Positions 12,809 to 59,123 of a stretch of DNA of 64,000 bases are shown piece by piece. This stretch comes from Saccharopolyspora sp. NFXS83 (GTDB lineage Bacteria; Actinomycetota; Actinomycetes; Mycobacteriales; Pseudonocardiaceae): contig NZ_JAPFGB010000023.1 of the NCBI RefSeq assembly GCF_026241095.1, positions 1-64,000 of the forward strand, given 5' to 3'. The first letter of the stretch is position 1, and each line of letters opens with the position of its first letter. The position numbers and the translations under genes are program-made. The notes beneath the pieces are model-generated. The model worked only from the letters and a program-made list of their open reading frames with translations, made no database searches and was not told the DNA's origin.

Positions 12809-12814
12809 TAGGGT
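12809..12814 (+). promoter_or_regulatory. Candidate leaderless promoter of the Nudix gene (-10 TAGGGT)
   Basis: TAGGGT is followed by 6 bases and then GTG 12821, the geometry of a leaderless transcript. No ribosome binding site is visible in the 22-base gap after pyrG. It is the same hexamer and nearly the same spacing as before recN. Confidence 0.5.
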
Positions 12815-12820
12815 GGCGCC

Positions 12821-13486: not shown

Positions 13487-13574
13487 CGGCGTCGTCGCGG
13501 GGACGACGCACCCGTATCGGCGGCGCGGTCCGCCGCTAGGGGCAACGCCCTGCACCGGCAGCGTGCACGCCTGG

Positions 13575-14099
13575 TCAGGAGGACAGGGCGCGTCCGTGCG
13601 CGTCGGTGCTCTCGGTGCTCAGGAGGACGATTCCGTCGACCACGCACCAGATCACCGCAGCGACGGAACCGACGCCGCAGGTGATCATCCCGCCCAGGAA
13701 GAACAGCAGCAGCTGGGCCACCGCGATACCGGTGTGGCCGGTGTAGAACCTGCCGATTCCGAACGGAAGCAGGATCTGCAGGAGTCCCGCGGCGAGCCGT
13801 GACTTGTCGGACCTCGTCCGGTTCTCGAACGGGTGCGGTGGCATCCCGTACGGCATCGGCGCGAGGCTCATCGGCTGCGGGATCTGCGCGAAACCGATCG
13901 GTGGTCGTGGTGCGGGCAGGTCGCTGAACAGCGCCATCAGGTCGTCGCGGGTGACGGATCCTGTCGCGCGGTCGACGCGTTCCTCGTATTCGGTCAGGGA
14001 CAGCCTGCTCAAGGCGTAGTGCTCGCCGAGCGCCTGGATCGCTTGCGCGCGTTCGTGATCGCCGATGCGCATCCGGCCGGGATCGTGCGGGGAGCTCAC
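13575..14099 (-). CDS. DUF1707 + TM2 domain membrane protein
   Basis: The 174-residue protein begins with a DUF1707 domain ([15 protein letters not shown], then [13 protein letters not shown]), has a Pro/Met-rich linker and ends in a TM2 domain with two membrane helices ([13 protein letters not shown] and a C-terminal helix ending in W-C-V-V-D-G). TM2 proteins are common but of unclear function. The open frame runs further upstream; GTG 14099 is favoured because a TATTCT box lies 7 bases ahead of it. ATG 14072 is an alternative. It is divergent from xerD and interrupts the conserved core order. Confidence 0.85.
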
Positions 14100-42402: not shown

Positions 42403-42896
42403 CGATCATGGCGGACGAGCAGGCCGGCTGGCGCGTCGTCGTCGGCTCCGATGACGCGGGGCTGGACTACAAGGACGTGCTCAAGGCCGATTTGGAGAAG
42501 GACCCCAGGGTGGCCTCTGTGGTCGACGTGGGCGTCGGTTCCGACGAGCACACCGACTACCCGCACGTCGCCGTCAACGCCGCGCGCAAGGTCGCCGCGG
42601 GTGAGGCGGACCGGGCGCTGCTGGTGTGCGGCACCGGGCTCGGCGTGGCGATCAGCGCGAACAAGGTGCCGGGGGTGCGCGCGGTGACCGCGCACGACAG
42701 CTACTCGGTGCAGCGCTCCGTGCTGAGCAACAACGCCCAGGTGCTGTGCTTCGGGCAGCGCGTGGTGGGCCTGGAGCTGGCGCGGCTGCTCGCGGCGGAG
42801 TGGCTGGACCTGCGCTTCGACGAGAACTCGGCGTCGGCGCAGAAGGTCGCGGCCATCGGCGAGTACGAGGGTGGCTCCACCGGCGGGACGTGTTGA
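42399..42896 (+). CDS. RpiB/LacAB-type sugar-phosphate isomerase
   Basis: A 165-residue isomerase with [10 protein letters not shown] near residue 16 and the catalytic-Cys motif [13 protein letters not shown] near residue 71. The N-terminal motif is the D-D-A-G variant, seen in erythrulose-phosphate isomerases (EryI/DerI), rather than D-H-A-G of ribose-5-phosphate isomerase. GTG 42399 overlaps the kinase stop; ATG 42408 is an alternative start. It probably converts the ketotetrose phosphate into erythrose 4-phosphate. Confidence 0.9.
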
Positions 42897-43531
42897 GCCC
42901 GTTGCTGGTCGAGGAGCGCGCGGAGGTCATCCGCATCGCCCAGAAAATGATCACCGATGGTCTGGTGGTGGGCACGTCCGGCAACGTGTCGGTGCGCAGC
43001 GGTGAGCTGGTCGCGGTGACACCGTCCGGAGTGGACTACGACGGTCTGACCGTCGGTGACATCGCGGTGGTCCGGCTCGACGGCACCTTGGTCGAGGGCG
43101 ATCTGCCCCCGACCTCGGAGCTGCCGATGCACCTGACGGCCTACGTCGAGCACGGGGTGCAGGCCGTGGTGCACACGCATTCCCTGCACGCCACGGCGTT
43201 GTCGTTGCTGCGCGACGACGTCCCCGCGGTGCACTACCAGCTGGCGGAGATGGGCGGTGTGGTGCGGGTCGCCGAGTACGCGACCTTCGGCACCGATCAG
43301 CTGGCCCGCAACATGTCGGCCGCGCTGGAGGGCCGGGGCGCGTGCGTCCTGCGCAACCACGGCACGGTCGCGGTCGGTTCGACGCCGGCCGCGGCCTACA
43401 ACCGGGCCCGGCAGCTGGAATGGCTCAGCGAACTGTGGCTCACGGCGCGGCGAGCAGGTGAACCGAGTCTGCTCGACGACGAGGAACTGTCCCGCTGCGC
43501 AGCCCAGTTCCACCACATCAGCGCCCGCTGA
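42893..43531 (+). CDS. Class II aldolase, FucA/AraD family
   Basis: A 212-residue zinc aldolase/epimerase. The expected ligands are present: Glu in S-E-L-P-M-H, the pair in V-V-H-T-H-S, and His in R-N-H-G-T-V. It would cleave a ketose 1-phosphate into dihydroxyacetone phosphate and an aldehyde. The start is probably TTG 42893, overlapping the rpiB stop (TTGA) with GGCGGGA at 42882-42888; GTG 42890 is possible. It is the last gene of the six-gene operon. Confidence 0.9.
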
Positions 43532-45483: not shown

Positions 45484-46485
45484 ATGCAGGCACGGTTGTC
45501 CCCCGAGTCGGTCGCGCTGTACAAGTTCGCGGTGTCCACTCCGTCCTGGACGAACGGGCAGGCCGCGCGTGAACTGGGCCTGACCGAACGCGAGGTGGTG
45601 GACGCCGAGCAGTTGTTGCTGGCGCTGCGGCTGCTGCGCGTGTCGCCGGACGGCCAGCGCGAACACGACGCCGTGGGCCCGGAAACGGCGCTCGCGGAGC
45701 TGTTGTACGACGACGAGGCGGAGATCCGTCGCAGGCAGGTCGAGCTGGCGCGGATGCGTGGCGAGGTGATGTGCCTGCTGCCGACCTACTACGAGGGTCG
45801 GCGGGCGCAGCGGCGGCACGAGGCGATCGACGTGATCGAGGACGTCGCCACCATCAACCAGCTGATCGCCGACAGCGCCCGCCAGGCCGCCCAGCAGGTC
45901 CTGATCGCGCATCCCGGTGGAGGTATGGACGCCGGCAACATCGACCGCATCCTCCAGGTGGACTTGGACATCCTGGCGCGCGGAATCGAACTGCGGATCC
46001 TGCTGCAGCACTCGACGCGGTCGCATCCGCCGTCGCAGGAGCACGCCAGGAAGGTCTCCGAAGCGGGTGGGCTGATCAAGACGGTGCCGATCGTGCCGCG
46101 CCGGCTGCTGGTCTACGACCGGGAGGTCGCCTACATCCCGCTGGACGGCGGGGACGTCTCGAAGGGCGCGCTGCGCATCAAGGAACCCGCGGTGGTCGAC
46201 TTCGTGACCGCCACGTTCACGTCCATGTGGGATGCGGGGCGACCGATGGGGGTCGGTCCCGACGACGAGGTCGACGACATCCGCTCCGAGCTGACGCGTT
46301 CGATCCTGGGGCAGCTGGCGACCGGGGCGAAGGACGAACTGATCGCGCGGCGACTGGGGATGTCGGTCCGGACCTGCCGCAGGCACATCGCGGCGATCAT
46401 GTCGCACCTGCGGGCGGAGAGCCGGTTCCAGGCGGGTGCTCTCTCGGAGCACCTCGGCCTGCTCGAAGACGAGGGGTACCGCTGA
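45484..46485 (+). CDS. LuxR-type regulator with TrmB-like N-terminus
   Basis: A 333-residue regulator. The N-terminus (Y-K-F-A-V-S-T-P-S-W, A-A-R-E-L-G-L-T-E-R-E-V-V-D-A) is a TrmB-like winged helix, the middle (residues about 120-240) resembles a PLD-like sensor domain, and the C-terminus is a GerE/LuxR HTH (I-A-R-R-L-G-M-S-V-R-T-C-R-R-H-I). There is no receiver domain. Such proteins are frequent pathway-specific regulators in actinomycetes. AGGAGGAG lies just before ATG 45484. It heads the putative biosynthetic locus and stands beside a small peptide gene. Confidence 0.88.
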   Translation: MQARLSPESVALYKFAVSTPSWTNGQAARELGLTEREVVDAEQLLLALRLLRVSPDGQREHDAVGPETALAELLYDDEAEIRRRQVELARMRGEVMCLLPTYYEGRRAQRRHEAIDVIEDVATINQLIADSARQAAQQVLIAHPGGGMDAGNIDRILQVDLDILARGIELRILLQHSTRSHPPSQEHARKVSEAGGLIKTVPIVPRRLLVYDREVAYIPLDGGDVSKGALRIKEPAVVDFVTATFTSMWDAGRPMGVGPDDEVDDIRSELTRSILGQLATGAKDELIARRLGMSVRTCRRHIAAIMSHLRAESRFQAGALSEHLGLLEDEGYR

Positions 46486-46497
46486 TTCGGCGTATTT

Positions 46498-46518
46498 GCA
46501 CCCTCGCGATGCGGGTGC
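46498..46518 (+). terminator. Short hairpin after the LuxR regulator gene
   Basis: GCACCC (46498-46503) pairs with GGGTGC (46513-46518) 13 bases after the stop. Only 6 bp and no T-run, so a weak terminator at best; another small stem CTTCG-TTG-CGAAG lies at about 46568-46580. Confidence 0.35.
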
Positions 46519-46668
46519 GCGTGGTAGTTCGCTGCCAGTCAGGAAGCTGACAGCCGACGTATCTGGACTTCGTTGCGAAGCACGCACGATGATTGTGTCA
46601 CCGAGGCAAGGGGTTAATCGAAAGTCTCGGAACCACAGTCGCAGCACTTCGCAAAAAAGGGGACCACA

Positions 46669-46845
46669 GTGAACGCGAAGACCACTTCCATGGTGATCAT
46701 TGCCGGCGCGCTCGTTTTCCCGCACGTGGCAGAGGGAGGCACCCCGGGGCTCGCCGGTGGTTCCGCCATCGTGTCGGAATCCGCTCTGGGATTCGGCGCG
46801 CAGGACGGCAACGGCAACGGCTGGCGGATGACGAACGCGGTGTGA
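46669..46845 (+). CDS. 58-residue putative secreted/signalling peptide
   Basis: A 58-residue peptide that starts (M)N-A-K-T-T-S with a hydrophobic core M-V-I-I-A-G-A-L-V-F and ends D-G-N-G-N-G-W-R-M-T-N-A-V. The N-terminal half looks like a weak signal sequence and the C-terminal half is Gly/Asn-rich and polar. GTG 46669 is preceded by an excellent ribosome binding site, AAAAAAGGGG at 46652-46661, in a 183-base intergenic region. It lies between a LuxR/TrmB regulator and a hotdog protein. It could be a peptide pheromone or a RiPP-like precursor; no modification enzyme of a known RiPP class is nearby. Confidence 0.6.
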   Translation: MNAKTTSMVIIAGALVFPHVAEGGTPGLAGGSAIVSESALGFGAQDGNGNGWRMTNAV

Positions 46846-46902
46846 GCGCCTCCCACTTTGCGACGAGGACATGAGGCGACCAGGCCCGGGAATGAGGATG
46901 TG

Positions 46903-47307
46903 GTGAACCCGAACAAGGTGCGCAGCCACGTTGAGATCGACCACGTCGTCGGCCCGTCGGACACCGCGCAGCGCTGGGGCGGCGATCTCCCGGTGCTGGC
47001 GACCCCGGTTCTGGTGTGGTTGAGCGAGGTCGCCGCCGTCGAATCCCTCGAAGCGGCGCTCGACGAGGACGAGGCGAGCGTGAGCGTCCGGCACGACGCG
47101 CGGCAGCTGACCACCGTCGTCGAAGGCAGTGCCGTGGTCGTCCGGGTCACCTCCGTCGGCGCCTCCCCGCGGGTCGCCGTGTTCGACATCGAGGCGAGCG
47201 ACCACAACGGGATCATGTTCCGCTCGATGCACGTCCGGGAGATCGTCAAGGTGCACGGTTCGGACGACGTCTGCCACGGTTACCGCGGGTTGTTCGGCGT
47301 GCGCTAG
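46903..47307 (+). CDS. FlK-like hotdog thioesterase
   Basis: A 134-residue hotdog-fold protein resembling fluoroacetyl-CoA thioesterase FlK. The three FlK catalytic residues have counterparts: Thr34 (L-A-T-P), Glu42 (L-S-E-V, eight residues on, as in FlK Thr42/Glu50) and His64 (V-R-H-D-A). The substrate is unlikely to be fluoroacetyl-CoA, and these proteins occur widely as housekeeping or pathway thioesterases. GTG 46903 has GAGG at 46894-46897; GTG 46900 is an alternative. Confidence 0.75.
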   Translation: MNPNKVRSHVEIDHVVGPSDTAQRWGGDLPVLATPVLVWLSEVAAVESLEAALDEDEASVSVRHDARQLTTVVEGSAVVVRVTSVGASPRVAVFDIEASDHNGIMFRSMHVREIVKVHGSDDVCHGYRGLFGVR

Positions 47308-47533
47308 TCCGCCGCGAAATCCGGTCGGCAGCCGGACGCCGATCGGGTCCATTCGGTGCCGCGGACGGCCGAACCGCACCCCGTCATTCTTCTCCCTCGC
47401 GCGACCGCATCAGCCGTTGAATGCGATTTAGAGAATTATTCCCCGGAAGCAGTGCGCCCTGAATCGTTCCTTTCTCGTTCGGTGGCCGCTGTTCGAGTGA
47501 AGGCGAATTCAGGCTATCCGGAAAGTGGGCGAC

Positions 47534-48232
47534 ATGGACGTGGAACTGATCGTGTTCGACTGCGACGGCGTGCTCGTAGACAGCGAACGGCTCAGCGCCG
47601 AGGTGCTGCGGGACATGGCAGCCGAACTGGGGATCGCCTTCACCTCGGGCGCGGCGCTGGAGCACCTCCGGGGACGCAAGGTCGCCGAGTGGGTGGCGGA
47701 ACTGGCCGGCCTGCGCCGGGGCGGGGTGCCCGCCGACTTCACTGACGAATTCCGCAGGCGCACGGCCGAGGCGTTCGACGCGCAGCTGGTCCCGGTACCG
47801 GGAGTGCGCGAGGTCCTCGACGTCGTGGACGTGCCCTACTGCGTCGCGTCCAGCGCTCCGCTGCACAAGATCCACCACACGCTCGGGCTCACCGGACTGC
47901 TGTCGTACTTCGGCGACCGCGTCCACAGCGCGTACGAGGTCGGTTCCTGGAAACCGGACCCGGACCTGTTCCTGCACGCCGCCCGCGACGCCGGGGTCGA
48001 CCCCGCGCACTGCGTCGTCGTCGAGGACAGCGTTCCCGGCGTCCGCGCCGGAGTCGCCGCAGGCATGACCGTCCTCGGTTACGCCCCGCCCGGCAGCGGG
48101 ATGGGCCCGGTGCTCGCGGAACGTGGCGCGCACCCCTTCCCCGCGATGTCCGAACTGCCGCGGTTGATCGACCGGCTGCGGAGCTCGGGAGGTCTCGTCG
48201 ACGCGGTGGCGCACCCGTCCGCCGCGTCCTGA
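47534..48232 (+). CDS. HAD phosphatase, beta-phosphoglucomutase-like
   Basis: A 232-residue HAD enzyme with V-F-D-C-D-G-V-L-V-D-S-E (Asp9 and Asp11), C-V-A-S-S-A-P (motif II), the Lys in W-K-P-D-P-D-L and V-V-E-D-S-V-P-G. It is of the same subfamily as the HAD at 37409 but clearly not a recent copy. Next to a transaldolase-family gene it may dephosphorylate the transaldolase product. ATG 47534 is preferred; GTG 47525 is possible. Confidence 0.88.
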   Translation: MDVELIVFDCDGVLVDSERLSAEVLRDMAAELGIAFTSGAALEHLRGRKVAEWVAELAGLRRGGVPADFTDEFRRRTAEAFDAQLVPVPGVREVLDVVDVPYCVASSAPLHKIHHTLGLTGLLSYFGDRVHSAYEVGSWKPDPDLFLHAARDAGVDPAHCVVVEDSVPGVRAGVAAGMTVLGYAPPGSGMGPVLAERGAHPFPAMSELPRLIDRLRSSGGLVDAVAHPSAAS

Positions 48233-48269
48233 ACGTCCTTCACCGGTACGAGAAGCGAGGTTGATCCAC

Positions 48270-49484
48270 TTGTCACGCGTTTTGGAAAAGCTGCAGCGCA
48301 CCCACGACACGGCCGAGATCTGGTGGGACTCCTCACCGCTCGACTTCCCCGCTTGGCGCGACGGGCTGCTCGCCTCCGCGCCGGACTCCGCGACCCGCGA
48401 GCGCTGGGCCGGGCGGCTCGACCGGTTCCTGGATCCCGAGGATCCGGGCAGATCGCTGGTGCGGGGGGTGACGACGAACCCGTCGCTGGTGTCGGCGAGC
48501 GTGCTCTCCGGTTCCCGCAAGTGGGCGGGGTGGTTGCGCGAAACCGGGCTCACCGACCCTGAGGACGCGTTCAGCACCGTCTACGAGGAGGTGCTGCGCC
48601 GGGCCGCGAACCACATGCGACCGCAGTGGGACGCCACCGAGGGCCGCTACGGCTGGGTCTCCGGCCAGCTCGACCCGCGGGTGATGTTCCAGGCACAGCG
48701 GATGCGGGAGCAGGGCAGGAGGTTCGCCGCGATCGCGCCGAACCTGATGGTGAAGGTGCCCGGCACCGCGCAGGGCTACCAGGTGGTCCGCGACCTGGTA
48801 GCCGAAGGCATCTCGATCAACGGGACGTTGTCGTACACGGTGCCGCAGTTCGCGGCCTGCGTGCGAGCGGTCGAGGACGGGTTGGTCGAAGCACGGGCCG
48901 CAGGCCGAGACCTCTCCCGGTGGCGCGCGGTGTTCACGCACATGATCGGCCGGTTCGGCGCGAACGTCGACCTGCAGCTGGAGGCCGCCGCGCGGGGCAT
49001 CACCTTGGAGACCCGCGACCTGCGGTGGGCGGAACTGGCGATCCTCAAGCGGATCCACTCGATGATCCGGCAGCGCGGGCTCCCGATCAAGCTGCTGCTG
49101 TCGAGCCTGCAGACCGACGATCCCGCCGACGGCTGGCTCAGCGCTCACCTGGAGCAGAGCGCGGGTGCGGACATCGCCTACACCTGCAAGCCGTCGTTCA
49201 TCGCGGAACTCCTCCGCCGCGAGGACGAGTTCGGCGAGTTCCGCCCCGGTGCCATCGACGACGAGGTGCCCGACGACGTGCTGCGCAAGCTCGACCGGCT
49301 CCCGTCGTTCCGCGACGCCTACGCCGTCAACGGCATGGCACCCGCGGAGTTCGGGCAGTACGGCTGCTTCATCTCCACCTACGCCGAGGTGATGCAGAAC
49401 AACCGGGCGCTGCTGGACTTCGCCGCCCGCCAGGCGCACCAGGGAGACCGGCACCGGACGCCGCTGCTGGCGGCCTCCAGCTGA
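48270..49484 (+). CDS. Transaldolase-family enzyme
   Basis: A 404-residue enzyme with the transaldolase signature R-G-V-T-T-N-P-S-L near residue 67, Schiff-base Lys162 in L-M-V-K-V-P-G-T, and G-I-S-I-N-G-T-L-S-Y-T. It is longer than classical TalB (about 317 residues) and differs in its N-terminal start T-H-D-T-A-E-I-W-W-D-S-S. As a housekeeping transaldolase would be misplaced here, a dedicated C3-unit transfer in the pathway is likely, for example to build an unusual sugar. TTG 48270 has GAGG at nine bases; TTG 48261 is an alternative start. Confidence 0.85.
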   Translation: MSRVLEKLQRTHDTAEIWWDSSPLDFPAWRDGLLASAPDSATRERWAGRLDRFLDPEDPGRSLVRGVTTNPSLVSASVLSGSRKWAGWLRETGLTDPEDAFSTVYEEVLRRAANHMRPQWDATEGRYGWVSGQLDPRVMFQAQRMREQGRRFAAIAPNLMVKVPGTAQGYQVVRDLVAEGISINGTLSYTVPQFAACVRAVEDGLVEARAAGRDLSRWRAVFTHMIGRFGANVDLQLEAAARGITLETRDLRWAELAILKRIHSMIRQRGLPIKLLLSSLQTDDPADGWLSAHLEQSAGADIAYTCKPSFIAELLRREDEFGEFRPGAIDDEVPDDVLRKLDRLPSFRDAYAVNGMAPAEFGQYGCFISTYAEVMQNNRALLDFAARQAHQGDRHRTPLLAASS

Positions 49485-49522
49485 CCGTCCAGGGATCACG
49501 ACTACGCAAGGGAAAGAGGAAC

Positions 49523-50320
49523 ATGCACCGGTCCATCACGTTGTGGAGCCATCCCCGTTCGATGTCGACGGCGCTGGAGCGCTCCTTCATCGAACGCGGG
49601 GACTTCACGGTCTTCCACGAGGAGTTCGCCTACCTGTTCTTCGTGCACGAGCAGCGCGCCGACATCCCGCACAAGAACCCCGACCCCGACCACCCGATGA
49701 CCTATCCGGACATCCGGGACCGCATGCGCGCCGCGCGCCGCGAGGCCCCGGTGTTCCACAAGGACTTCCCCTACCACGCCTTGGAGGAATTGCTGGCCGA
49801 CCCGGAGTTCCTGCTGGGGCAGACCAACACCTTCCTCATCCGCGACCCCGCGGAGGCCGTGCTCTCGCACGCCACCGTGCACCCCGGTCTCACCCGCGAG
49901 GTGCTCGGCTACGAGCAGCTGGCCCGGCTGTTCGACGAGGTCCGCGAGCTGACCGGCGAGGTCCCGGCGCTGATCAACGCCGCCGACCTGGCCACCGACC
50001 CCCAAGGCACGCTCGCCGCCTACTGCGCCGCGATCGGGCTCGATTTCCGCGCAGAGGCGCTGAACTGGTCCTCCGGCGAGGCGCCGGAGTGGAAGACGTG
50101 GAGCGGCTGGCACGACGACGTGGCGGCCAGCAGCGGTTTTGCGAAACCCGCGCGCAACTACCGGTTCTCGCTGGCCGACGAGCCGCGGCTGCGGGAGTTC
50201 GTGGACCACTGCCAGCCCTACTACGACCACCTCGACCGGTTCCGGATCCACCCCGCGCCGCGCGGCGCGTTCGACATCCCCGAACAGGCGGGGCGGCCCG
50301 AGATGGAGACGACGCCATGA
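49523..50320 (+). CDS. Sulfotransferase-like protein (PAPS-dependent)
   Basis: A 265-residue protein with a sulfotransferase-type P-loop S-H-P-R-S-M-S-T-A-L-E-R (residues 9-20, the 5'-phosphosulfate loop) and a 3'-phosphate motif I-R-D-P-A-E-A-V-L-S-H (106-116). This family is often labelled sulfotransferase-like. The presence of cysC, cysD and cysN in the same gene set strongly supports a true PAPS-dependent sulfotransferase. AAGAGGA lies just before ATG 49523; the stop overlaps the SDR start. The acceptor is unknown, presumably a hydroxyl on the transaldolase-derived or N-methylated product. Confidence 0.82.
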   Translation: MHRSITLWSHPRSMSTALERSFIERGDFTVFHEEFAYLFFVHEQRADIPHKNPDPDHPMTYPDIRDRMRAARREAPVFHKDFPYHALEELLADPEFLLGQTNTFLIRDPAEAVLSHATVHPGLTREVLGYEQLARLFDEVRELTGEVPALINAADLATDPQGTLAAYCAAIGLDFRAEALNWSSGEAPEWKTWSGWHDDVAASSGFAKPARNYRFSLADEPRLREFVDHCQPYYDHLDRFRIHPAPRGAFDIPEQAGRPEMETTP

Positions 50321-51048
50321 GCATCGAGAAGGTCATCATCACCGGCGGCGCCAACGGCGTCGGACGTGCCCTGGTGCGGCGCTGCCTCGACGACGGCCAG
50401 ACCGTGATCGCGGGCGACATCGACGAACCCGGCCTCAAGGCCCTCGCCGACGAGCACGCGGGCCGGCCGCTGGAGGTGCACACCGTCGACGTCGGCGCGC
50501 ACGAGTCCTGCGACGCGTTCCTGGACGTGGTGCTCGCCGCGCACCCCGAGGTGACCGGCCTGGTGAACAACGCCGGGCTCTACCTGGGGCAGCCGGTGCA
50601 GCAGTACGACGACGCCACGATCGACCGGGTCATCGACGTCAACGTGAAGGGGCCGGTGTGGCTCTCGCGCCGGTTCGCCGGGCACGTCATCGCCGAGGGT
50701 CGCCGCGGCGCCATCGTCAACCTCGCCTCGGTGGCAGGTGAGGTCGGCAGCTCCGATGCGCTCTACGGCACGGTGAAGGCCGGTGTGATCGGCCTGACCA
50801 AGTCGAACGCGATGAACTTCGCCCCGCACCTGCGGGTGAACGTGGTCTCGCCGGGCCTGATCATCCGGACGGCCATCGCCGACCGGATCCCGGACTACCG
50901 CTACGCCGAGTACAAGCGCCAGGAGCAGCTCGACGGCGACATCACGCCCGAAGCGGTGGCCGACGTGTGCGCCTACCTCCTCAGCGACCGGTCCGCGCTG
51001 ATGACCGGAGCAGTCCTCCGCGCCGACAACGGCTGCTACCCGCGCTGA
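50317..51048 (+). CDS. Short-chain dehydrogenase/reductase
   Basis: A 243-residue classical SDR: T-G-G-A-N-G-V-G (residues 9-16), N-N-A-G (84-87), and the catalytic Ser138, Tyr150 and Lys154 (Y-G-T-V-K). It is translationally coupled to the sulfotransferase gene (ATGA), which argues that both act in the same pathway. Substrate unknown, probably a sugar-like alcohol. Confidence 0.92.
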   Translation: MSIEKVIITGGANGVGRALVRRCLDDGQTVIAGDIDEPGLKALADEHAGRPLEVHTVDVGAHESCDAFLDVVLAAHPEVTGLVNNAGLYLGQPVQQYDDATIDRVIDVNVKGPVWLSRRFAGHVIAEGRRGAIVNLASVAGEVGSSDALYGTVKAGVIGLTKSNAMNFAPHLRVNVVSPGLIIRTAIADRIPDYRYAEYKRQEQLDGDITPEAVADVCAYLLSDRSALMTGAVLRADNGCYPR

Positions 51049-51132
51049 GGAGCCTTCGCGGGCGGTTCGGGCAGCGGCTCCGCCGCTGGCGAGACACCGA
51101 TCGACTCCGTTGCGCGAAGACTTCCGAGCGGA

Positions 51133-51165
51133 ACTCCGCCGCCCGTCCCGCGCGGGCGGCGGAGT
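51133..51165 (+). terminator. Strong hairpin dividing the locus
   Basis: ACTCCGCCGCCCG (51133-51145) and CGGGCGGCGGAGT (51153-51165) form a perfect 13-bp stem in the 159-base gap between the SDR and the NAD-binding protein. No T-run follows. A second stem CAGCGGC-TCC-GCCGCTG lies about 51072-51088. Either partial termination or mRNA processing could occur here. Confidence 0.65.
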
Positions 51166-51207
51166 CCCCGCGCCGAATCCGTCCCGCATTCCCTCCGAGG
51201 AGGACGC

Positions 51208-52353
51208 ATGAACGACCGATCCGCATCGGACAAGCCGCTGATCATGTTGGTGGGCATGGGAGATCTGTCCTCCCGGGTGCTCACGATGCTGCTGAACGAC
51301 CCGGCGACCTCGCGCCTCGTCGTGGCCGGACGCGACGTCGAGGCGATCCGGCGCCGGGCGAACCTCGCCCGCTTCACCGCCGCCAACCTGGGCGTGCACG
51401 GCACCGTCGACGCCGTTCACGTCGACCTGCACGACGTGGACGCCACCGCGGAGACGCTGGCCCGGGTGCGCCCGGACATCGTGTTCATGGGCGCCTCGTT
51501 GCAGTCGTGGCGCATCATCACCGGCCTGCCGCCCGCCGTGTTCGACGAGCTGGACCAGGCCCAGTTCGGTCCGTGGCTGCCGATGCACCTCACCCTCAAC
51601 CACCTGCTGATGCGAGCGGTCCAGAGCTCCGGCGCGCAGCCGGTCGTCGTCAACGCAGCGTTCCCGGACGCGGTGGGGCCGGTGCTCGATGCGGTGGGGC
51701 TCGCCCCGACGGTCGGCGTCGGCAACGTCGCCAACATCATCCCGGCGCTGACGTTCGGGTTCGCCGACGAGCTCGGCGTGGACCCGGCGGCGGTGCGGCT
51801 GCGGCTGGTCGCCCAGCACTACTTCAGCCACTACGTTCCGCGCGCCGGCGACGCGGGCGGCGGTTCCTACCACCTCGACGTGGAGGTCGACGGACGAGCC
51901 CCGAGCAGGGACGTGCCGCACACCGACGTGTTCGGGCAGCTCAACGGCAGGCTCAAGCGCCTCGGCGGGGTGGACGGCCAGCTGCTCACGGCGTCCTCGG
52001 CGGTGCGGGTGCTCACCGGCATCGCCACCGACAGCGGGATCCACGCCCACGCCCCGGCACCGGGCGGTCTGCCCGGTGGTTACCCGGTCCGGGTGGGCCG
52101 CCACGGCGCGACCCTCGACCTGCCCGCCGGACTGCAGCGAGCCGAGGCCGTCCGGATCAACGAGCGCTGCCAGGCCGCCGACGGCATCGAGCACATCGAC
52201 GCCGACGGCACCGTGACCTTCACCGAACCCGAGATGTCGATCATGCGGCGGTTGCTCGGCTACGAGTGCAAAACCATGAAGCTCGCCGACAGCGCGGACC
52301 ACGCCGACGAGCTCGCCGCCAAGTACCGGGCGTTCGCCGCGGTGCACGCGTGA
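51208..52353 (+). CDS. NAD(P)-binding protein, saccharopine-dehydrogenase/MDH-like, unknown substrate
   Basis: A 381-residue protein with an N-terminal Rossmann segment L-V-G-M-G-D-L-S-S-R-V-L (residues 14-25), D-I-V-F-M-G-A-S and G-V-G-N-V-A-N, and a long C-terminal catalytic region. It recalls saccharopine dehydrogenase-like and malate dehydrogenase-like proteins, but I cannot assign a reaction. GAGGAGGA lies just before ATG 51208. With the SDR it gives the pathway two oxidoreductases. Confidence 0.72.
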   Translation: MNDRSASDKPLIMLVGMGDLSSRVLTMLLNDPATSRLVVAGRDVEAIRRRANLARFTAANLGVHGTVDAVHVDLHDVDATAETLARVRPDIVFMGASLQSWRIITGLPPAVFDELDQAQFGPWLPMHLTLNHLLMRAVQSSGAQPVVVNAAFPDAVGPVLDAVGLAPTVGVGNVANIIPALTFGFADELGVDPAAVRLRLVAQHYFSHYVPRAGDAGGGSYHLDVEVDGRAPSRDVPHTDVFGQLNGRLKRLGGVDGQLLTASSAVRVLTGIATDSGIHAHAPAPGGLPGGYPVRVGRHGATLDLPAGLQRAEAVRINERCQAADGIEHIDADGTVTFTEPEMSIMRRLLGYECKTMKLADSADHADELAAKYRAFAAVHA

Positions 52354-52399
52354 CCGGGCCCGCCCGACCTCTCGTCCACTCCCAGCTCCGGAGGACATC

Positions 52400-53170
52400 A
52401 TGACCGCACGCGCGACCACGCCCGAACCCGCCGTCGAAGACGGTGCGGGCCAGTACGTCCAATCCCTCGTGGACCACTGGGACGAGCTCATCGACTGGGA
52501 GCAGCGCAAAGCCGGTGAAGGCGGGTTCTTCGACTCGCTGCTGTCCCGCGCCGGTGCCCGCCGGGTGCTCGACGCGGCGGCCGGGACCGGCTTCCACTCG
52601 GTCACCCTCGCCGAAGCCGGCTACGACGTCACCGCCACCGACGGCAGCCAGGCGATGATCGACCGCGCCGCGAGCAACGCGCGATCCCGCGGCGTGCGGC
52701 TGCCGACGATCCGCAGCGACTGGAACGACCTGCACGACACCGTCGACGGCCGCTTCGACGCCGTGCTGTGCCTGGGCAGTTCGTTCCCGCACCTGTTCGA
52801 CCCGGCGGAGCGCGCCGCAGTGCTCCGCGAGTTCCACGACGCCCTCGAACCCGGGGGAGTGCTCGTCCTCGACCACCGCAACTTCGACGCGATCCGGGCG
52901 CACCGCTACCGCAGCAGCGGCAACTACTACTACTGCGGCGACGGGGTGCAGGTGTCGGTGGCCCACGTCGACTCCGAGCGATGCCGGTTCCGCTACGAGT
53001 TCGCCGGGCGGGTGACCCACCACCTGGAGGTGTACCCGGTGCTCGCCGACGAACTCGCGGACCTCTTGCGCGAAGCCGGATTCGACTCCGTCGAGCGGTT
53101 CGGCGACTTCCACGCCGAGTACGACCCGTACGCGGCCGACTTCATCATCCAAGTCGCCCGCAAGGCCTAA
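52400..53170 (+). CDS. SAM-dependent N-methyltransferase, glycine/sarcosine methyltransferase-like
   Basis: A 256-residue class I methyltransferase. Its N-terminus Q-Y-V-Q-S-L-V-D-H-W-D-E-L-I-D-W, motif I V-L-D-A-A-A-G-T-G-F-H-S (56-67), L-G-S-S-F-P-H-L-F, D-H-R-N-F-D and N-Y-Y-Y-C-G match the pattern of glycine/sarcosine N-methyltransferases of betaine synthesis. No dimethylglycine methyltransferase follows, so here it probably methylates an amino group of the pathway product. AGGA precedes ATG 52400. Confidence 0.86.
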   Translation: MTARATTPEPAVEDGAGQYVQSLVDHWDELIDWEQRKAGEGGFFDSLLSRAGARRVLDAAAGTGFHSVTLAEAGYDVTATDGSQAMIDRAASNARSRGVRLPTIRSDWNDLHDTVDGRFDAVLCLGSSFPHLFDPAERAAVLREFHDALEPGGVLVLDHRNFDAIRAHRYRSSGNYYYCGDGVQVSVAHVDSERCRFRYEFAGRVTHHLEVYPVLADELADLLREAGFDSVERFGDFHAEYDPYAADFIIQVARKA

Positions 53171-53182
53171 AAGGATCACCTC

Positions 53183-54511
53183 ATGAACGCATCAACGCAC
53201 CATGTGCGCACGCAGCGCAGCCCGCTGATCGGCTTCGTCGTCACGGTGCTGCTGACGAGCTTCGTCGCCGCGACCTACGGTTTCGGCTTCTACCTGTTCT
53301 CGCAGATCGTGACGGACATGCGTCTCGACCTGGGGTTCGGCTTCACCGCGGTCGGCACCATCACGGCCGCCGGTCAGCTCGGGTTCCTGGTGTTCGCCCT
53401 GTTGGGGACGTGGCTGTCCACCCGCATCGGTGGCGGCCAGATGACGCTGGGCTCGGCGATCCTGTGCGGGCTGTGCCTGCTACTGGTCCCGGTCACCGAC
53501 AACATCGTGGTGATCGGCGTGCTGCTGACCATCCTCGGCGGCACCGCCGCGTCGGTGTACGTGCCGCTCGTCGAGATCGTCGGGCGCATCATCGACTACA
53601 AGCACCGCGGCAAGGTGCTCGGGCTCATCTCCAGCGGCACCAGCTACGGCGTGTTCGTCAACAGCATGCTGGTGCCGTCGTTCGTCAGCGACGACAACTG
53701 GCGCGGGCTCTGGTACTCCGTCGGATTCGGCACGCTCATGGTCACCGCGGTCGCCGCGTTCACCTTCTGGCGGATCGGCATCCTGTCCAATGCGGACACG
53801 ACGGCCCCCACCGGCGGCGCGGCGCCCGACAGCGCCAAGGCCGGCTGGAAGATGGTGCTGGTCCGCTGGGTCGTGATCGTCTGGGTGATGAAGTTCCTCA
53901 ACGGCTTCGCGTCCATGCCGTTCCAGAACTACTTCTCCCCGTACCTGCGGGAAGATCTGGGCTTCGACATCGAGTTCGCCTCCTACGCCTGGGGTGTCAT
54001 CGGAGTCGTCGGCATGGTCGCCGGGTTCGCGGTCGGCTGGCTCTCGGACAAGATCGGCGTTCGTGCCGCGCTCGTCCTGTGCTACTCGTGCTTCTTCATC
54101 GCCGCCGCGCTGCTCGTCGTGGCGCCGGTGGGCGTGCTGCCGATCGTGTCCGGAGTGCTGTTCGGGCTCGCCTTCTACCCGATCTACGGCCTGGTTCCCG
54201 CCTACGTGGCCAAGACCGCCAGCGGGGCCGCGGCGACCATCATCTTCGGCGTCACCAACGTCACCCAAGGCGTCGGCGGCATCGCGGGCAACTACCTGGC
54301 CGGTGCGCTGAAGAACCTCACCGGCGGATTCATGTGGTACTACGTCGTGATCGCCGTGACGACCGTGGTCCTCGGAATCCTCACCCTCCAGCTCCCGCGC
54401 GAAGGATCCGTCGCCGGCGGACCCGATCAGGACGCGCCGGACCCCACTCCCGAAGCCGCCGACCCGGCGCCCGTTGCGGCGGCCCGTCCGATCACGGAGG
54501 TAGTGCGATGA
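53183..54511 (+). CDS. MFS transporter
   Basis: A 442-residue major facilitator with 12 predicted helices in two six-helix halves joined by a charged loop near residues 205-225, and a Pro/Ala-rich cytoplasmic tail of about 40 residues. No drug-efflux signature decides the substrate. It begins 12 bases after the methyltransferase stop and overlaps cysC by four bases, so it probably exports the product; uptake is possible. Confidence 0.9.
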   Translation: MNASTHHVRTQRSPLIGFVVTVLLTSFVAATYGFGFYLFSQIVTDMRLDLGFGFTAVGTITAAGQLGFLVFALLGTWLSTRIGGGQMTLGSAILCGLCLLLVPVTDNIVVIGVLLTILGGTAASVYVPLVEIVGRIIDYKHRGKVLGLISSGTSYGVFVNSMLVPSFVSDDNWRGLWYSVGFGTLMVTAVAAFTFWRIGILSNADTTAPTGGAAPDSAKAGWKMVLVRWVVIVWVMKFLNGFASMPFQNYFSPYLREDLGFDIEFASYAWGVIGVVGMVAGFAVGWLSDKIGVRAALVLCYSCFFIAAALLVVAPVGVLPIVSGVLFGLAFYPIYGLVPAYVAKTASGAAATIIFGVTNVTQGVGGIAGNYLAGALKNLTGGFMWYYVVIAVTTVVLGILTLQLPREGSVAGGPDQDAPDPTPEAADPAPVAAARPITEVVR

Positions 54512-55101
54512 CCCTTGCTCCGAGTTCCCCTTCGCCCACCACGACCGGAACCCGTTGGTGCACCTGCCGTCCCGGCGCGACGGTGTGGCTGACCGGCCTG
54601 CCCAGCGCGGGCAAGACCACCCTCGCCCTCGCCCTGTCCGCGGTGCTGCGCGAGGAGGGCCGCCGCGTCGAGGTGCTCGACGGCGACGTCATGCGCTCGA
54701 CGCTGTCGGCGGGCCTGGGCTTCTCCCGCGAGGACCGCGAAGCCAACGTCGCGCGGATCGGCCTCATGGCGGAAGTCCTGTCCCGCAACGGAGTGCTCAC
54801 CCTCGTCCCGGTGATCGCCCCGTTCGCCGAGAGCCGTGCCGCGGTGCGCGAGCGCCACGACCGCAGCGCCACGAACTTCCTCGAAGTGCACGTCGCCACG
54901 TCGGTGCAGCTGTGCGAGGCCCGTGACGTGAAAGGCCTCTACGCCAAGCACAAGGCGGGCCGGCTCACCGGGCTCACCGGGGTCGACGCGCCCTACGAAG
55001 CGCCGGCGCGGCCGGACCTGCGGATCGAGACCGACGCGCACAGCGTCGAGGAATCCGTGGTGAGCCTGCGGGCGCTGCTGTTCCAGAGGGGGTTGGCATG
55101 A
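54508..55101 (+). CDS. cysC: Adenylylsulfate (APS) kinase
   Basis: A 197-residue APS kinase that phosphorylates APS to PAPS. The P-loop is G-L-P-S-A-G-K-T-T (30-38), with D-G-D-V-M-R, the G-F-S-R-E-D-R segment and K-G-L-Y-A-K/A-H-K-A-G motifs of the family. It is a free-standing enzyme, not fused to CysN. The ATG overlaps the transporter stop; its own stop overlaps cysD. Confidence 0.94.
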   Translation: MTLAPSSPSPTTTGTRWCTCRPGATVWLTGLPSAGKTTLALALSAVLREEGRRVEVLDGDVMRSTLSAGLGFSREDREANVARIGLMAEVLSRNGVLTLVPVIAPFAESRAAVRERHDRSATNFLEVHVATSVQLCEARDVKGLYAKHKAGRLTGLTGVDAPYEAPARPDLRIETDAHSVEESVVSLRALLFQRGLA

Positions 55102-56036
55102 CCACGGTGGCCGGACCGATCACCGACATCGCCGAACTCGCGGGCGGCCTGTCGCACCTCGACGTCCTCGAATCCGAAGGCGTGCACATCATCCGGGAGG
55201 TCGTGGGGGAGTTCGAACGACCCGTGCTGCTGTTCTCCGGCGGCAAGGACTCCATCGTGATGCTGCACCTGGCGCTGAAGGCGTTCGCCCCCGCACCCGT
55301 CCCGTTCGCGCTGCTGCACGTCGATACCGGGCACAACTTCCCGGAGGTGCTCGAACACCGGGACCGCACCGCCGCGCGGCACGGGCTGCGGCTGCACGTG
55401 GCGTCCGTGCAGGAGTTCATCGACCAGGGGAGGCTGCGCGAACGTCCCGACGGCACCCGCAACCCGCTGCAGACCGAACCGCTGCTCGACGCGATCCGCA
55501 CCGGCCGGTTCGACGCCGTGTTCGGCGGCGGGCGGCGCGACGAGGAGAAGGCGCGCGCCAAGGAACGCGTGTTCTCGTTGCGCGACGAGTTCGGCGGCTG
55601 GGACCCGCGCAGGCAGCGGCCCGAGCTGTGGCAGCTCTACAACGGCAGGCACGCCCCCGGCGAGCACGTGCGGGTGTTCCCGCTGAGCAACTGGACCGAA
55701 CTCGACGTGTGGCAGTACATCGAGCGGGAGCGCATCGAACTGCCCGAGATCTACTTCGCGCACGACCGGGAGGTGTTCTCCCGCGCGGGGATGTGGCTGG
55801 CGCCCGGCGAATGGGGCGGGCCGCGCGAGGACGAGCGGCTGGTGAGCCGGACCGTGCGCTACCGCACCGTCGGGGACATGTCCTGCACCGGCGCCGTCGA
55901 ATCGGAGGCGGACACGGTGCCCAAGGTGATCTCCGAGATCGTCGAGTCCCGGATGACCGAGCGCGGTTCCTCCCGCGCCGACGACAAGCTGTCCGAATCC
56001 GCCATGGAAGACCGCAAACGTGAGGGGTACTTCTGA
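55098..56036 (+). CDS. cysD: Sulfate adenylyltransferase subunit 2
   Basis: A 312-residue ATP sulfurylase subunit of the PAPS-reductase-like fold. The PP-loop is S-G-G-K-D-S (47-52), followed by L-H-V-D-T-G-H-N-F-P, the G-G-G-R-R-D-E-E-K segment and S-N-W-T-E-L-D-V-W. With CysN it makes APS from ATP and sulfate. Coupled to cysC and cysN by overlapping codons. Confidence 0.95.
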   Translation: MTTVAGPITDIAELAGGLSHLDVLESEGVHIIREVVGEFERPVLLFSGGKDSIVMLHLALKAFAPAPVPFALLHVDTGHNFPEVLEHRDRTAARHGLRLHVASVQEFIDQGRLRERPDGTRNPLQTEPLLDAIRTGRFDAVFGGGRRDEEKARAKERVFSLRDEFGGWDPRRQRPELWQLYNGRHAPGEHVRVFPLSNWTELDVWQYIERERIELPEIYFAHDREVFSRAGMWLAPGEWGGPREDERLVSRTVRYRTVGDMSCTGAVESEADTVPKVISEIVESRMTERGSSRADDKLSESAMEDRKREGYF

Positions 56037-57307
56037 TGGGCGTCACCGAGCAGACCCGCGCGATGTCGTTGCTGCGCTTCGCGACCGCCGGTTCCGTGGA
56101 CGACGGGAAGTCCACTCTCGTCGGCCGGCTGCTGCACGACTCGAAGTCCGTGCTCTCCGACCAGCTGGAGTCGATCACCCGCGGTTCGCGCCACCTGGGC
56201 GAGACCGCGGTGGACCTCGCGCTGCTCACCGACGGCCTGCGAGCCGAACGCGAGCAGGGCATCACCATCGACGTCGCCTACCGGTACTTCGCCACTCCGC
56301 GCAGGCGGTTCATCCTGGCCGACACGCCCGGACACGTGCAGTACACCCGCAACATGGTGACCGGGGCGTCGACCGCCGACCTGGCCGTGGTGCTCGTCGA
56401 CGCCCGCCACGGCCTCGTCGAGCAGACCCGGCGTCACGCCGCGGTCGCGGCGCTGCTGCGGGTGCCGCACCTGGTGCTCGTGGTGAACAAGATGGACCTC
56501 GTCGGGTGGTCCGAGCAGCGGTTCACCGAGATCGTCGACGAGTTCGTCGCCTACGCCGCGTCGCTGGGCGCGGACGACGTCCTCGCCATCCCGATCTCCG
56601 CGCTGGAGGGCGACAACGTCGTGCTCCCGTCGCGGCACATGGACTGGTACGGCGGGCCGACCGTGCTGGAGCACCTGGAGGCGGTGCCCGCCGACCGCGA
56701 CCCGGCGGCTGATCCCGCGCGGTTCCCCGTGCAGCACGTGATCCGGCCGCAGACCGCGGCGCACCTCGACTACCGGGGCTACGCGGGCAGGTTGTCGTCC
56801 GGGACGCTGCGGGTCGGCCAGCGGGTGACCGTGCTGCCGTCCGGGCTCACCAGCACCATCGCCGCCATCGACGTCCTGGGAGTGCCCGCCGCCGATGCCC
56901 GCGCGCCCCAGTCGGTGACGGTGCGGCTGGCCGATGACCTGGACGTGAGCCGCGGCGACCTCATCGTCCCCGCCGAAAGCCCGCTGCGGCCCCGGCGCGA
57001 CGTGTCCGCGACCGTGTGCCACCTGCACGACCGGCCGCTGGTGCCCGGCAGACGGGTGCTGCTCAAGCACACGACCAGGACGGTGCAGGCGATCGTGCGG
57101 GACATCGAGTACCGGCTCACCCCGGAGACGCTCGGCCGCACACCCGCTCCGGAACGGCTGGAGGTGAACGACATCGGCGGTATCGCACTGCGCACCGCGG
57201 AACCGCTGCCGGTGGACTCGTACGCGGCATCGCGCACCACCGGATCGCTGCTGCTGATCGATCCGTCGGACGGCGCGACGTTGGCGGCCGGTATGGCATC
57301 GGAGTGA
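56036..57307 (+). CDS. cysN: Sulfate adenylyltransferase subunit 1 (GTPase)
   Basis: A 423-residue translation-factor-like GTPase. G1 is A-G-S-V-D-D-G-K-S-T near residue 17, followed by R-G-I/Q-G-I-T-I-D-V-A-Y-R-Y-F, D-T-P-G-H and N-K-M-D. Its GTP hydrolysis drives CysD. There is no C-terminal APS kinase fusion, consistent with the separate cysC. The ATG overlaps the cysD stop (TGATG). No cysH, cysI or sirA is present in the window. Confidence 0.95.
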   Translation: MGVTEQTRAMSLLRFATAGSVDDGKSTLVGRLLHDSKSVLSDQLESITRGSRHLGETAVDLALLTDGLRAEREQGITIDVAYRYFATPRRRFILADTPGHVQYTRNMVTGASTADLAVVLVDARHGLVEQTRRHAAVAALLRVPHLVLVVNKMDLVGWSEQRFTEIVDEFVAYAASLGADDVLAIPISALEGDNVVLPSRHMDWYGGPTVLEHLEAVPADRDPAADPARFPVQHVIRPQTAAHLDYRGYAGRLSSGTLRVGQRVTVLPSGLTSTIAAIDVLGVPAADARAPQSVTVRLADDLDVSRGDLIVPAESPLRPRRDVSATVCHLHDRPLVPGRRVLLKHTTRTVQAIVRDIEYRLTPETLGRTPAPERLEVNDIGGIALRTAEPLPVDSYAASRTTGSLLLIDPSDGATLAAGMASE

Positions 57308-57390
57308 TCGGCGATTCGCATTCCCGCGGGGCTGGCATACTTTCCGGTCGAATAGTGACGACGATCCGGAAAAGTTGACGAGGAGCTTTC

Positions 57391-58221
57391 GTGCAGGAGT
57401 GGGAACTCGGTCGAGTCCACCGCAGCAGCATCGGCGATGTTCGCTGGGATCGCCTCGGCGAAGAGGAGAAGGAACCGGTCGTGCTCTTGCACGGCACGCC
57501 CTTCTCCTCTTTTGTCTGGCGAGGCGTCGCCCGCGCGTTGGCGCCGCATTTCCGGGTGTACGTCTGGGACATGCCGGGTTACGGCGCGTCGGACAAGCAC
57601 GACGGCCAGGACGTGTCGCTGGCCGCGCAGGGGCAGGTGTTCGCGGAACTGCTCCAGCACTGGGAACTGGACCGGCCCGCCGTGATCGCGCACGACTTCG
57701 GCGGCGCCGTCGCGTTGCGCGCGCACCTGCTGCACGGCGCGCGGTACGAGCGGCTCGCCGTGGTCGACCCGGTGGCGCTCGCCCCGTGGGGATCGCCGTT
57801 CTTCCGGTTGATCGGGCAGCACGTGGAGGTCTTCGAACAGCTGCCCCCGGCCATGCACCGGGCGCTGGTGCGCGAGTACATCAGGTCGGCGAGCCACCGC
57901 GGCCTCGACGACGCCCTGGTCGACGCGCTGACCGAGCCGTGGCTGGGGGAATCCGGGCAGCCGGCGTTCTACCGCCAGATCGCCCAGGCGGATCAGCGCT
58001 ACACCGACGAAGTGCAGCACTCCTACGGCGAGCTCGACCTGCCCGCGATGGTGTGCTGGGGAGCGGAGGACACCTGGATCCCGGTGCAGAAGGGCCACGA
58101 ACTCGCCGGACTCGTTCCCGGCGCGCAGTTGCGGGTGATCCCGGGAGCGGGGCACCTGGTGCAGGAGGACGCGCCCGCCGAACTGGCAGCGGCCCTTTTC
58201 GCATTCCTCCGCGACCGGTGA
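57391..58221 (+). CDS. Alpha/beta hydrolase with Asp nucleophile (dehalogenase/epoxide-hydrolase-like)
   Basis: A 276-residue alpha/beta hydrolase. The oxyanion motif is L-H-G-T-P (33-37), the nucleophile elbow reads A-H-D-F-G-G with Asp102 instead of Ser, and the acid and base are in E-D-T-W-I-P and G-A-G-H (about His255). An Asp nucleophile is typical of haloalkane and fluoroacetate dehalogenases and epoxide hydrolases. AGGAGC lies 10 bases before GTG 57391. It follows cysN after 83 bases and may belong to the locus, or be independent. Confidence 0.85.
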   Translation: MQEWELGRVHRSSIGDVRWDRLGEEEKEPVVLLHGTPFSSFVWRGVARALAPHFRVYVWDMPGYGASDKHDGQDVSLAAQGQVFAELLQHWELDRPAVIAHDFGGAVALRAHLLHGARYERLAVVDPVALAPWGSPFFRLIGQHVEVFEQLPPAMHRALVREYIRSASHRGLDDALVDALTEPWLGESGQPAFYRQIAQADQRYTDEVQHSYGELDLPAMVCWGAEDTWIPVQKGHELAGLVPGAQLRVIPGAGHLVQEDAPAELAAALFAFLRDR

Positions 58222-58362
58222 GCGAGCTGTCCTCGTTTGCCGGTCGAGGTGGTCAGGTGAAGAACCTCGGCTGTCCTCGCGAGAATGCAGCTGAGAACCT
58301 GCGGCGGATCCTTCTGCGGCTCTTCGCAGATGTGCGCGTGGTGCCTGCCGGTCGGTCCTGAC

Positions 58363-58381
58363 GCACTTCAAAGTGCCTTTT
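58363..58381 (+). terminator. Possible terminator after the hydrolase gene
   Basis: GCACTT (58363-58368) and AAGTGC (58371-58376) can form a short stem followed by CTTTT. It closes the presumed operon 142 bases after the hydrolase stop. The stem is short and the loop tight, so this is weakly supported. Confidence 0.4.
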
Positions 58382-58454
58382 GTAAGCCTTCTCCTGCTCA
58401 TTCACGATGGGGTTACGAACTACTGGTGAGGTGAGCAGGGTGGTTGAGCGGCTA

Positions 58455-59123
58455 ATGCAATCCGAGGAGGCGCAGGTCGTCGTCGAGGTGTGGTCCGACC
58501 TGGGCTGCCCGTGGTGCTACGTCGGGAAGCACCGACTCCAGGCCGCGATCGCGCAGCGCCCGGACGAAGCTCGGTTCGAGATCGCAATGCGGTCGTTCGA
58601 GCTGGACCCGGGCGCACCGCGGGAGCCGGAGAAGAACGAGAAGAGCTTCATCCGCGCGCACGGCGGCACCGCCGCCGACGTCCTCCGGGCCGAGCGCCGG
58701 ATGCAGGTGATCGCGCGCGAGGAGGGGCTCGAGTTCTCTCCGGACCGGCTGAACGCCAACACGTTCGACCTGCACCGCGTGGTCCAGTTCGCCAACGACC
58801 AGGGCCGCGGGTTCGAGTTCTTCTCGGACGTCCAGAACGGCTTCTTCGCCGGCGCCCTCGACCCCCACGCCCCGGGCGTGCTCGCAGGCGTCGCGGAGGC
58901 GGTCGGGCTGGACGGGCAGCGAGTCCGCGAGATCCTCGCTGGCGACGAGTACGCCAACCGCGTGCGCGCCGACCGGACCGAGGGCCTGGAGCTGGGTGCG
59001 ACCGGCGTCCCGTTCGTCGTCTTCGGACGCCGGGTGGCCGCCCCGGGCGCCCAGGAGGTCCCCGTCTACGGCCGGTTGCTGGAGCGAGTAGCGGGGCCCG
59101 TGCCGAGTGAGCGCGTGTCATGA
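58455..59123 (+). CDS. DsbA-family (FrnE-like) thiol oxidoreductase
   Basis: A 222-residue thioredoxin-fold protein with the active-site C-P-W-C (Cys18 and Cys21, V-E-V-W-S-D-L-G-C-P-W-C-Y) and a long helical insert, followed by cis-Pro in T-G-V-P-F. FrnE proteins are cytosolic disulfide isomerases and oxidative-stress factors. There is no signal peptide. ATG 58455 gives the common N-terminus, but starts at GTG 58431 or ATG 58407 are also in frame. Confidence 0.9.
   Translation: MQSEEAQVVVEVWSDLGCPWCYVGKHRLQAAIAQRPDEARFEIAMRSFELDPGAPREPEKNEKSFIRAHGGTAADVLRAERRMQVIAREEGLEFSPDRLNANTFDLHRVVQFANDQGRGFEFFSDVQNGFFAGALDPHAPGVLAGVAEAVGLDGQRVREILAGDEYANRVRADRTEGLELGATGVPFVVFGRRVAAPGAQEVPVYGRLLERVAGPVPSERVS

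Follow-up and report, generated by a model that had tools for sequence, protein, structure and literature searches.

A ten-gene unit was delimited at 47525–57307 in the window, a 64,000-nucleotide stretch of DNA from Saccharopolyspora sp. NFXS83 (contig NZ_JAPFGB010000023.1, positions 1 to 64,000). A plausible, still tentative interpretation is that this unit is a specialised-metabolite operon whose exported product is a polyhydroxy amino or imino acid, built in part from sugar carbons, that bears an O-sulfate and an N-methyl group. Support came from what the genes encode, from their linkage and co-inheritance, from a spare supply of 3′-phosphoadenosine 5′-phosphosulfate (PAPS), from catalytic residues that are kept and from one protein fold; on this basis we infer the substrates, the sequence of reactions, the transport direction, the role and the product. 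Such a pathway would be compact and cross-phylum, would work without polyketide synthase (PKS), nonribosomal peptide synthetase (NRPS) or terpene enzymes and would bring its own activated sulfate, and its carriers include many strains of Pseudomonas and some of Streptomyces.

All ten genes were on the plus strand. The unit opened with a HAD phosphatase (47525–48232; PF00702, 6.1e-25), followed by a divergent transaldolase-like enzyme (TAL, 48261–49484; PF00923, 2.9e-27), a sulfotransferase of the Sulfotransfer_5 family (ST, 49523–50320; PF19798, 7.5e-20), a short-chain dehydrogenase (SDR, 50317–51048; PF13561, 1.7e-43), an oxidoreductase of an unnamed family with a predicted lactate/malate dehydrogenase fold (the NAD protein, 51208–52353), an enzyme resembling glycine/sarcosine N-methyltransferase (GSMT) (52400–53170; NCBIfam NF051855, 3e-81), an MFS transporter (53183–54511; PF07690, 1.1e-32), the adenosine 5′-phosphosulfate (APS) kinase CysC (54508–55101; PF01583, 9.2e-55), and subunits 2 and 1 of sulfate adenylyltransferase, CysD (55098–56036; PF01507, 1.5e-44) and CysN (56036–57307; PF00009, 4.3e-43). 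Gaps within the unit were at most 159 bases. ST and SDR overlapped by 4 bases, MFS and CysC by 4, CysC and CysD by 4, and CysD and CysN by 1, so that, as a first-pass annotation of this DNA had proposed, overlapping genes tie the exporter to cysC-cysD-cysN and ST to SDR. That annotation had also named all of these enzymes and a LuxR-type regulator upstream, and family matches located every one of them. It had further stated that sulfate-reduction, PKS, NRPS and terpene genes were missing; none was present among the annotated open reading frames (ORFs) of 45484–59123. The locus thus joined a sulfotransferase to PAPS genes with no reduction genes, the arrangement of a PAPS-dependent sulfation cluster.

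An alignment of the NAD protein was scanned against one genome per species (84,980 species). It matched 106 stretches, from which 80 loci were retrieved; counts over these 80 loci are not prevalences. Loci were classed by script as full when TAL, ST, SDR and NAD each had at least 28% identity to the window proteins by tblastn. By this definition 35 of the 80 were full, with TAL-ST-SDR-NAD arranged as in the window. They were spread over seven genera from two phyla, the Actinomycetota and the Pseudomonadota: Pseudomonas (24), Streptomyces (5), Salinarimonas (2), and Puniceibacterium, Aurantimonas, Burkholderia and Paraburkholderia (1 each). HAD was found in 34 of them, the methyltransferase in 34, MFS in 33, CysC in 30, and CysD with CysN in 4; four loci (L076, L079, L081 and L138) stopped at contig borders inside the block. 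The gene order of the window was kept in all 35, except that CysC (34–39% identical there, like CysD and CysN) came after CysD-CysN in the two Salinarimonas loci. An arrangement retained so widely, in two phyla, goes beyond chance. The other 45 loci comprised three variants with another sulfotransferase, three with TAL and NAD only, 12 with HAD and NAD only, and 27 of other kinds, among them a cut locus (L078, reading NAD-methyltransferase-MFS-CysC-CysD) and L150. In the latter, from Pseudomonas sp. UMAB-08 (7000–9300), HAD and TAL had no match, the start of ST was cut and an unrelated ORF, phage-like by eye, lay upstream; this block seems to be decaying.

In a tree built from 78 rows of the NAD alignment, the window fell among the Streptomyces loci, and the full type required 5 changes against a mean of 26 after shuffling. 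Distances for TAL, ST, SDR, the methyltransferase and MFS tracked those for NAD in 33 loci plus the window (Mantel r 0.98–0.99; 0 of 999 shuffles as high). Because 23 of the 33 loci were from Pseudomonas, a chosen set of nine distant rows gave the fairer figure, r 0.86–0.95. By these sequence comparisons the genes of the unit appear to diverge in step, as co-inherited genes would. A search with ST, made independently of NAD in 295 Streptomyces genomes, gave 32 matches at 1e-30, five of them at 69–71% and none of the others above 41%. All five close homologues were flanked as TAL-ST-SDR-NAD (some of these genomes may already have been in the NAD scan), while in five examined of the 27 genomes with distant homologues ST stood alone within 1.5 kb on each side. 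Linkage was therefore conserved, in agreement with the first-pass annotation, which scattered homologues would have contradicted. ST was present in one of six genomes of the source genus, its own, and the NAD protein in 20 of 346 genomes of the source family (1e-10), the other 19 at 49% or less; the unit is a rare and probably transferred trait in this family.

Regulatory and accessory genes near the block varied. A SARP-type regulator was found in five of the 35 full loci, all Streptomyces, and S-adenosylmethionine (SAM) synthetase genes in four (L077, L079, L080 and L088). In Pseudomonas loci L098–L117 a gene of the CGNR zinc-finger/ABATE type (Pfam shown for L100) followed CysC, at ~13.8 kb in most, and weak homologues of it (29–37%) lay directly before HAD in L083, L087, L092 and L093; it is perhaps a regulator of those blocks.

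The genome contained four PF01507 matches: the window CysD, two on contig C4 and one on contig C56. On C4, a CysD 73% identical to that of the window adjoined a CysN 60% identical to the window CysN, and the same contig carried a CysH-like gene (so called by eye, from size and place) and a sulfite reductase (PF01077). This set is the assimilatory sulfate pathway, and its presence makes the window cysCDN genes spare. The proposal that the locus has a PAPS supply of its own was thus upheld, with cysCDN inside the unit and not the only such set in the genome. C56 carried a third CysD (63%) and CysN (58%), with a protein that combined an APS kinase domain with a weak match to ATP sulfurylase, slightly short of the cut-off, near an arylsulfotransferase (PF14269); the region at 5707–13626 of this locus (L069) is a third sulfate-activation locus.

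The closest solved structures to the methyltransferase were those of MpGSMT (PDB 5h02, 1.1e-65, near full-length). In MpGSMT, Arg167 and Tyr206 are described as holding the carboxylate of sarcosine and Asn134 as holding its amine, and His138 and Met218 surround the methyl group (PMC5146677). These residues were mapped onto the window enzyme by ungapped alignment, with a chain offset of 20 set by us. The equivalents of Arg167, Tyr206 and His138 were kept in 36 of 36 homologues (1e-15; two weaker matches, L084 at 34% and L094 at 27%, excluded), as in MpGSMT. Unlike MpGSMT, the window enzyme and all 36 homologues had Ser for Asn134 and Val for Met218. Since the carboxylate clamp was kept and the residues on the amine side were changed, the expected substrate is an alpha-amino acid that is given extra space around its nitrogen, which suggests that it is bulkier or N-substituted. 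The N-methylated amine of the first-pass annotation can thereby be narrowed to a putative N-methylated amino acid, and the Ser/Val signature, like the NAD family, gives a handle for finding more such pathways.

Catalytic residues were also kept in the other two enzymes aligned. Lys165, Asn187, Thr189 and Arg231 of TAL were present in 41 of 41 homologues (1e-15); by alignment to the family, Lys165 is the putative Schiff-base lysine, so that TAL has both this lysine and the PF00923 match by which membership of the transaldolase family was judged. Among the matches listed from 296 genomes of the class, TAL was 27–38% identical to all apart from its own gene, and it was 44% identical to a Shinella enzyme encoded within a dehydrogenase-complex operon. 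An argument on phosphate binding, made from the residues (Glu, Lys, Gln and others) at position 284 of TAL, was dropped, since the alignment to known transaldolases was made by motif. In ST, the PRSxST stretch was complete in 34 of 36 homologues (one had Ser changed to Ala, and one row, probably that of the cut L150, had no such stretch), and Arg107 and Ser115 were kept in 36 of 36. Comparison of ST with PDB sequences gave chance matches only.

The NAD protein had no Pfam match at 1e-3. By Foldseek it is predicted to have a lactate/malate dehydrogenase fold over most of its chain, and His204, the candidate for the His of a catalytic Asp-His pair, was present in 34 of 39 rows and in 13 of 13 type A rows. 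An identity as saccharopine dehydrogenase, considered because of weak Pfam matches at the N terminus (E ≤1 in 24 of 39 members, best 1.1e-7, window 0.15) and weak PDB sequence matches, was dropped after the fold search.

Other members of the NAD family occurred in several settings. In three variants (L084, L090 and L091) the genes for CysC, CysD, CysN, HAD, TAL and NAD were accompanied by one for a Sulfotransfer_3-type enzyme (PF13469 shown for L084; L090 and L091 had homologues at 48% and 75%) and by an MFS gene not homologous to that of the window at 1e-6. As they keep the CysCDN/HAD/TAL/NAD genes with a sulfotransferase of another family, sulfation seems to have been recruited twice. Between NAD and the sulfotransferase each had a capsid-like gene (L084, 11203–12100; L090, 11150–12073; L091, 11318–12205). 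The L090 product matched PF05065 at 25.2 bits (cut-off 24.2) and shared 47–48% identity with its L084 and L091 counterparts; that of L091 had no Pfam match. L085 had a class II aldolase (PF01116) and no TAL match, and in L118 and L119 homologues of this aldolase lay ~4 kb away from NAD; the transaldolase and class II aldolase families both use a dihydroxyacetone unit. An ATP-grasp gene was directly upstream in 11 of the 12 HAD-NAD loci (Pfam shown for L129), in surroundings that by eye were of NRPS type, and in L086 one lay ~4 kb from TAL-NAD, with a LanB-like gene by eye. On rhizobial plasmids NAD adjoined alanine racemase and another HAD family. In L095 (8857–12608) and L096 (8654–13701), from Desulfobacterales and Deltaproteobacteria metagenome-assembled genomes, the NAD gene lay between choline-kinase-like and trimethylamine-methyltransferase-type genes, perhaps a catabolic counterpart. 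An unnamed oxidoreductase family is thus linked to aldolase-type enzymes, to ATP-grasp genes near NRPS and to capsid-bearing clusters; amino acid-like substrates with removal or addition of phosphate are a suggestive common thread and nothing firmer.

In the proposed pathway, CysD, CysN and CysC would supply PAPS, sparing assimilation from the demand of sulfation. TAL would lengthen an aldehyde already bearing the amino acid part by three carbons, added as dihydroxyacetone, the acceptor being, as a guess, an amino acid semialdehyde; HAD would strip phosphate from an intermediate, and the NAD protein and SDR would determine its level of oxidation. N-methylation, of an alpha-amino acid or a ring imino acid, may fall to the GSMT-like enzyme and sulfation of a hydroxyl to the Sulfotransfer_5 enzyme, with the MFS protein exporting the product. 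A more specific version, which we regard as a long shot, has TAL adding three sugar carbons to aspartate semialdehyde to give a C7 amino ketose that closes to a six-membered imine; reduction would yield a polyhydroxylated pipecolic acid, which would be N-methylated, O-sulfated and exported. On that version the TAL/HAD/NAD core, which also occurs in capsid-bearing and NRPS-linked clusters and perhaps in RiPP-linked (ribosomal peptide) ones, would be one unrecognised building-block pathway feeding several natural product classes in two phyla.

Several points weigh against a sulfated, N-methylated amino acid made in this way. TAL scored far below the named transaldolase cut-offs (best NCBIfam 103.8 bits against 367), and a transaldolase acting on an unphosphorylated aldehyde leaves the HAD step unexplained. 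The methyltransferase, at 272.8 bits, fell below the curated NF051855 GSMT cut-off of 350. Among the full loci, CysC was unfound in five of 35 (two cut by contig ends) and HAD in one, and CysD and CysN were present in just four (some of the remainder cut). For the NAD protein, the Foldseek TM-score by query length was 0.50–0.57 among the matches listed. Lactate/malate dehydrogenases take a 2-keto acid via an Asp and an Arg; at the places that we take, by motif, to be these sites the NAD protein had Asn173 (37 of 39 rows) and Asn176 (35 of 39), and so it seems to have neither residue. No amine-introducing enzyme was encoded in the unit, so the amine would have to come with the substrate. Finally, no metabolite has yet been tied to the unit.

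The genes at either end did not belong to the unit. Upstream were the LuxR-type (GerE) regulator (45484–46485, plus strand; PF00196, 5.2e-7) and a protein of the FlK (fluoroacetyl-CoA thioesterase) family (~46900–47307, plus strand; PF22636, 3.6e-16), the match being obtained on an ORF from 46858 and the start at 46900 being our choice; downstream were an alpha/beta hydrolase (57391–58221, plus strand; PF00561, 9.4e-25) and a DsbA-type protein. In tblastn searches of the 80 NAD loci at 1e-6, the regulator and the FlK-type protein had no match, the DsbA-type protein had a single match at 30%, and the hydrolase gave only matches of 23–25% on the opposite strand. The regulator, thioesterase and hydrolase therefore do not travel with the unit. 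Of the extent given in the first-pass annotation, 45484 to 58221, the core of 47525–57307 stood and the end genes fell away; its gene list had also overlooked the FlK-type thioesterase. A small ORF at 46669–46839 likewise had no match in the 80 loci (tblastn).

The main rival is that sulfation is cryptic, the sulfate serving as a leaving group for ring closure (e.g. to an aziridine) and the exported product being sulfate-free. Azinomycin provides the precedent: a C7 amino acid is reported to be formed by two-carbon extension of glutamate semialdehyde and then sulfated, after which the neighbouring amine displaces the sulfate to give the aziridine (PMC9570651). This chemistry would suit an amino acid with added sugar carbons, and the azinomycin/vazabitide C7 amino acid (DADH) route resembles the proposed one in joining an amino acid semialdehyde to sugar carbons before sulfation. 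However, that route uses a transketolase (C2) and a protected glutamate, whereas here the enzyme is transaldolase-like (C3); no transketolase, amino-group carrier protein or aminotransferase was among the annotated genes of the unit, and a fully N-methylated amine would be unable to close such a ring. We consider cryptic sulfation unlikely. Somewhat less probable again is that the product is not bioactive but acts as an osmolyte, akin to a sulfated betaine, or stores sulfur or methyl groups. The GSMT-like enzyme, the SAM synthetase genes near four of 35 loci and CysC in 30 of 35 would agree with it, as would the presumably marine habitat of some carrier genera, going by their names, but the unit's own MFS transporter, the SARP-type regulators of the five Streptomyces loci and a patchy spread (5 of 295 Streptomyces genomes, and one of six of the source genus, its own) argue otherwise. 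Organofluorine or fluoroacetate chemistry, suggested by the FlK family match and by an HDFGG motif, seen by eye, that puts Asp at the nucleophile place of the alpha/beta hydrolase, is highly improbable, neither gene travelling with the unit in the 80 loci.

It is also improbable, to about the degree of an osmolyte, that the product and pathway are already known under other names or in other journals. No description of the unit or product was found in open-licence full texts, supplements lying outside that search, and the locus is apparently undescribed, as the first-pass annotation had it. In favour of a pathway already known stands an account from 2021 of family 3 (natural product) encapsulin clusters, which are said to carry capsid Pfam labels and often sulfotransferase and SDR pairs, with pathways proposed; the only studied cluster named there makes chloromyxamides, peptides with 6-chloromethyl-5-methoxypipecolic acid (PMC8346489). 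Like these clusters, L084, L090 and L091 have a capsid-like gene near a sulfotransferase, and we read them as belonging to family 3. The window and the full loci differ: two HK97-fold capsid proteins had no match in the window (tblastn, 1e-3), and at 1e-8 the capsid-like gene matched none of the 35 full loci and, among the 80, only those three.

Other systems resembled the unit in part. On a plasmid of Streptomyces sp. NBC_01343 (NZ_CP108363.1; L075, 6183–12726) a sulfotransferase 37% identical to ST was accompanied, in the order seen in the unit, by cysC, cysD and a GTP-binding gene resembling cysN. Unlike the unit, this module was embedded in an NRPS cluster beside a penicillin-acylase gene, and no TAL, NAD-family, HAD or methyltransferase gene was annotated in the 25 kb shown. 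In the ascamycin and nucleocidin sulfamate clusters, PAPS genes are likewise described as serving sulfation in specialised metabolism (PMC10946740, PMC9113183), but those clusters have nucleoside substrates, Sulfotransfer_1/3-type enzymes and an amidinotransferase, and no amidinotransferase, nucleoside genes or Sulfotransfer_1/3-type enzymes were among the Pfam-annotated genes of the unit. Galactosyrin, an iminosugar of P. syringae, was considered as Pseudomonas strains carry the unit, and was ruled out because its genes differ: gsnA-E are reported to encode three enzymes, one protein of unknown function and one transporter (PMC11844564).

Elsewhere in the window, at 40519–43528, genes for a dihydroxyacetone kinase (Dak1/Dak2), an RpiB-type isomerase and a class II aldolase (PF00596) followed one another, perhaps as a catabolic operon for a sugar alcohol or tetrose. 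A tRNA-Ala called by ARAGORN at 43318–43397, inside the class II aldolase gene, is probably false.

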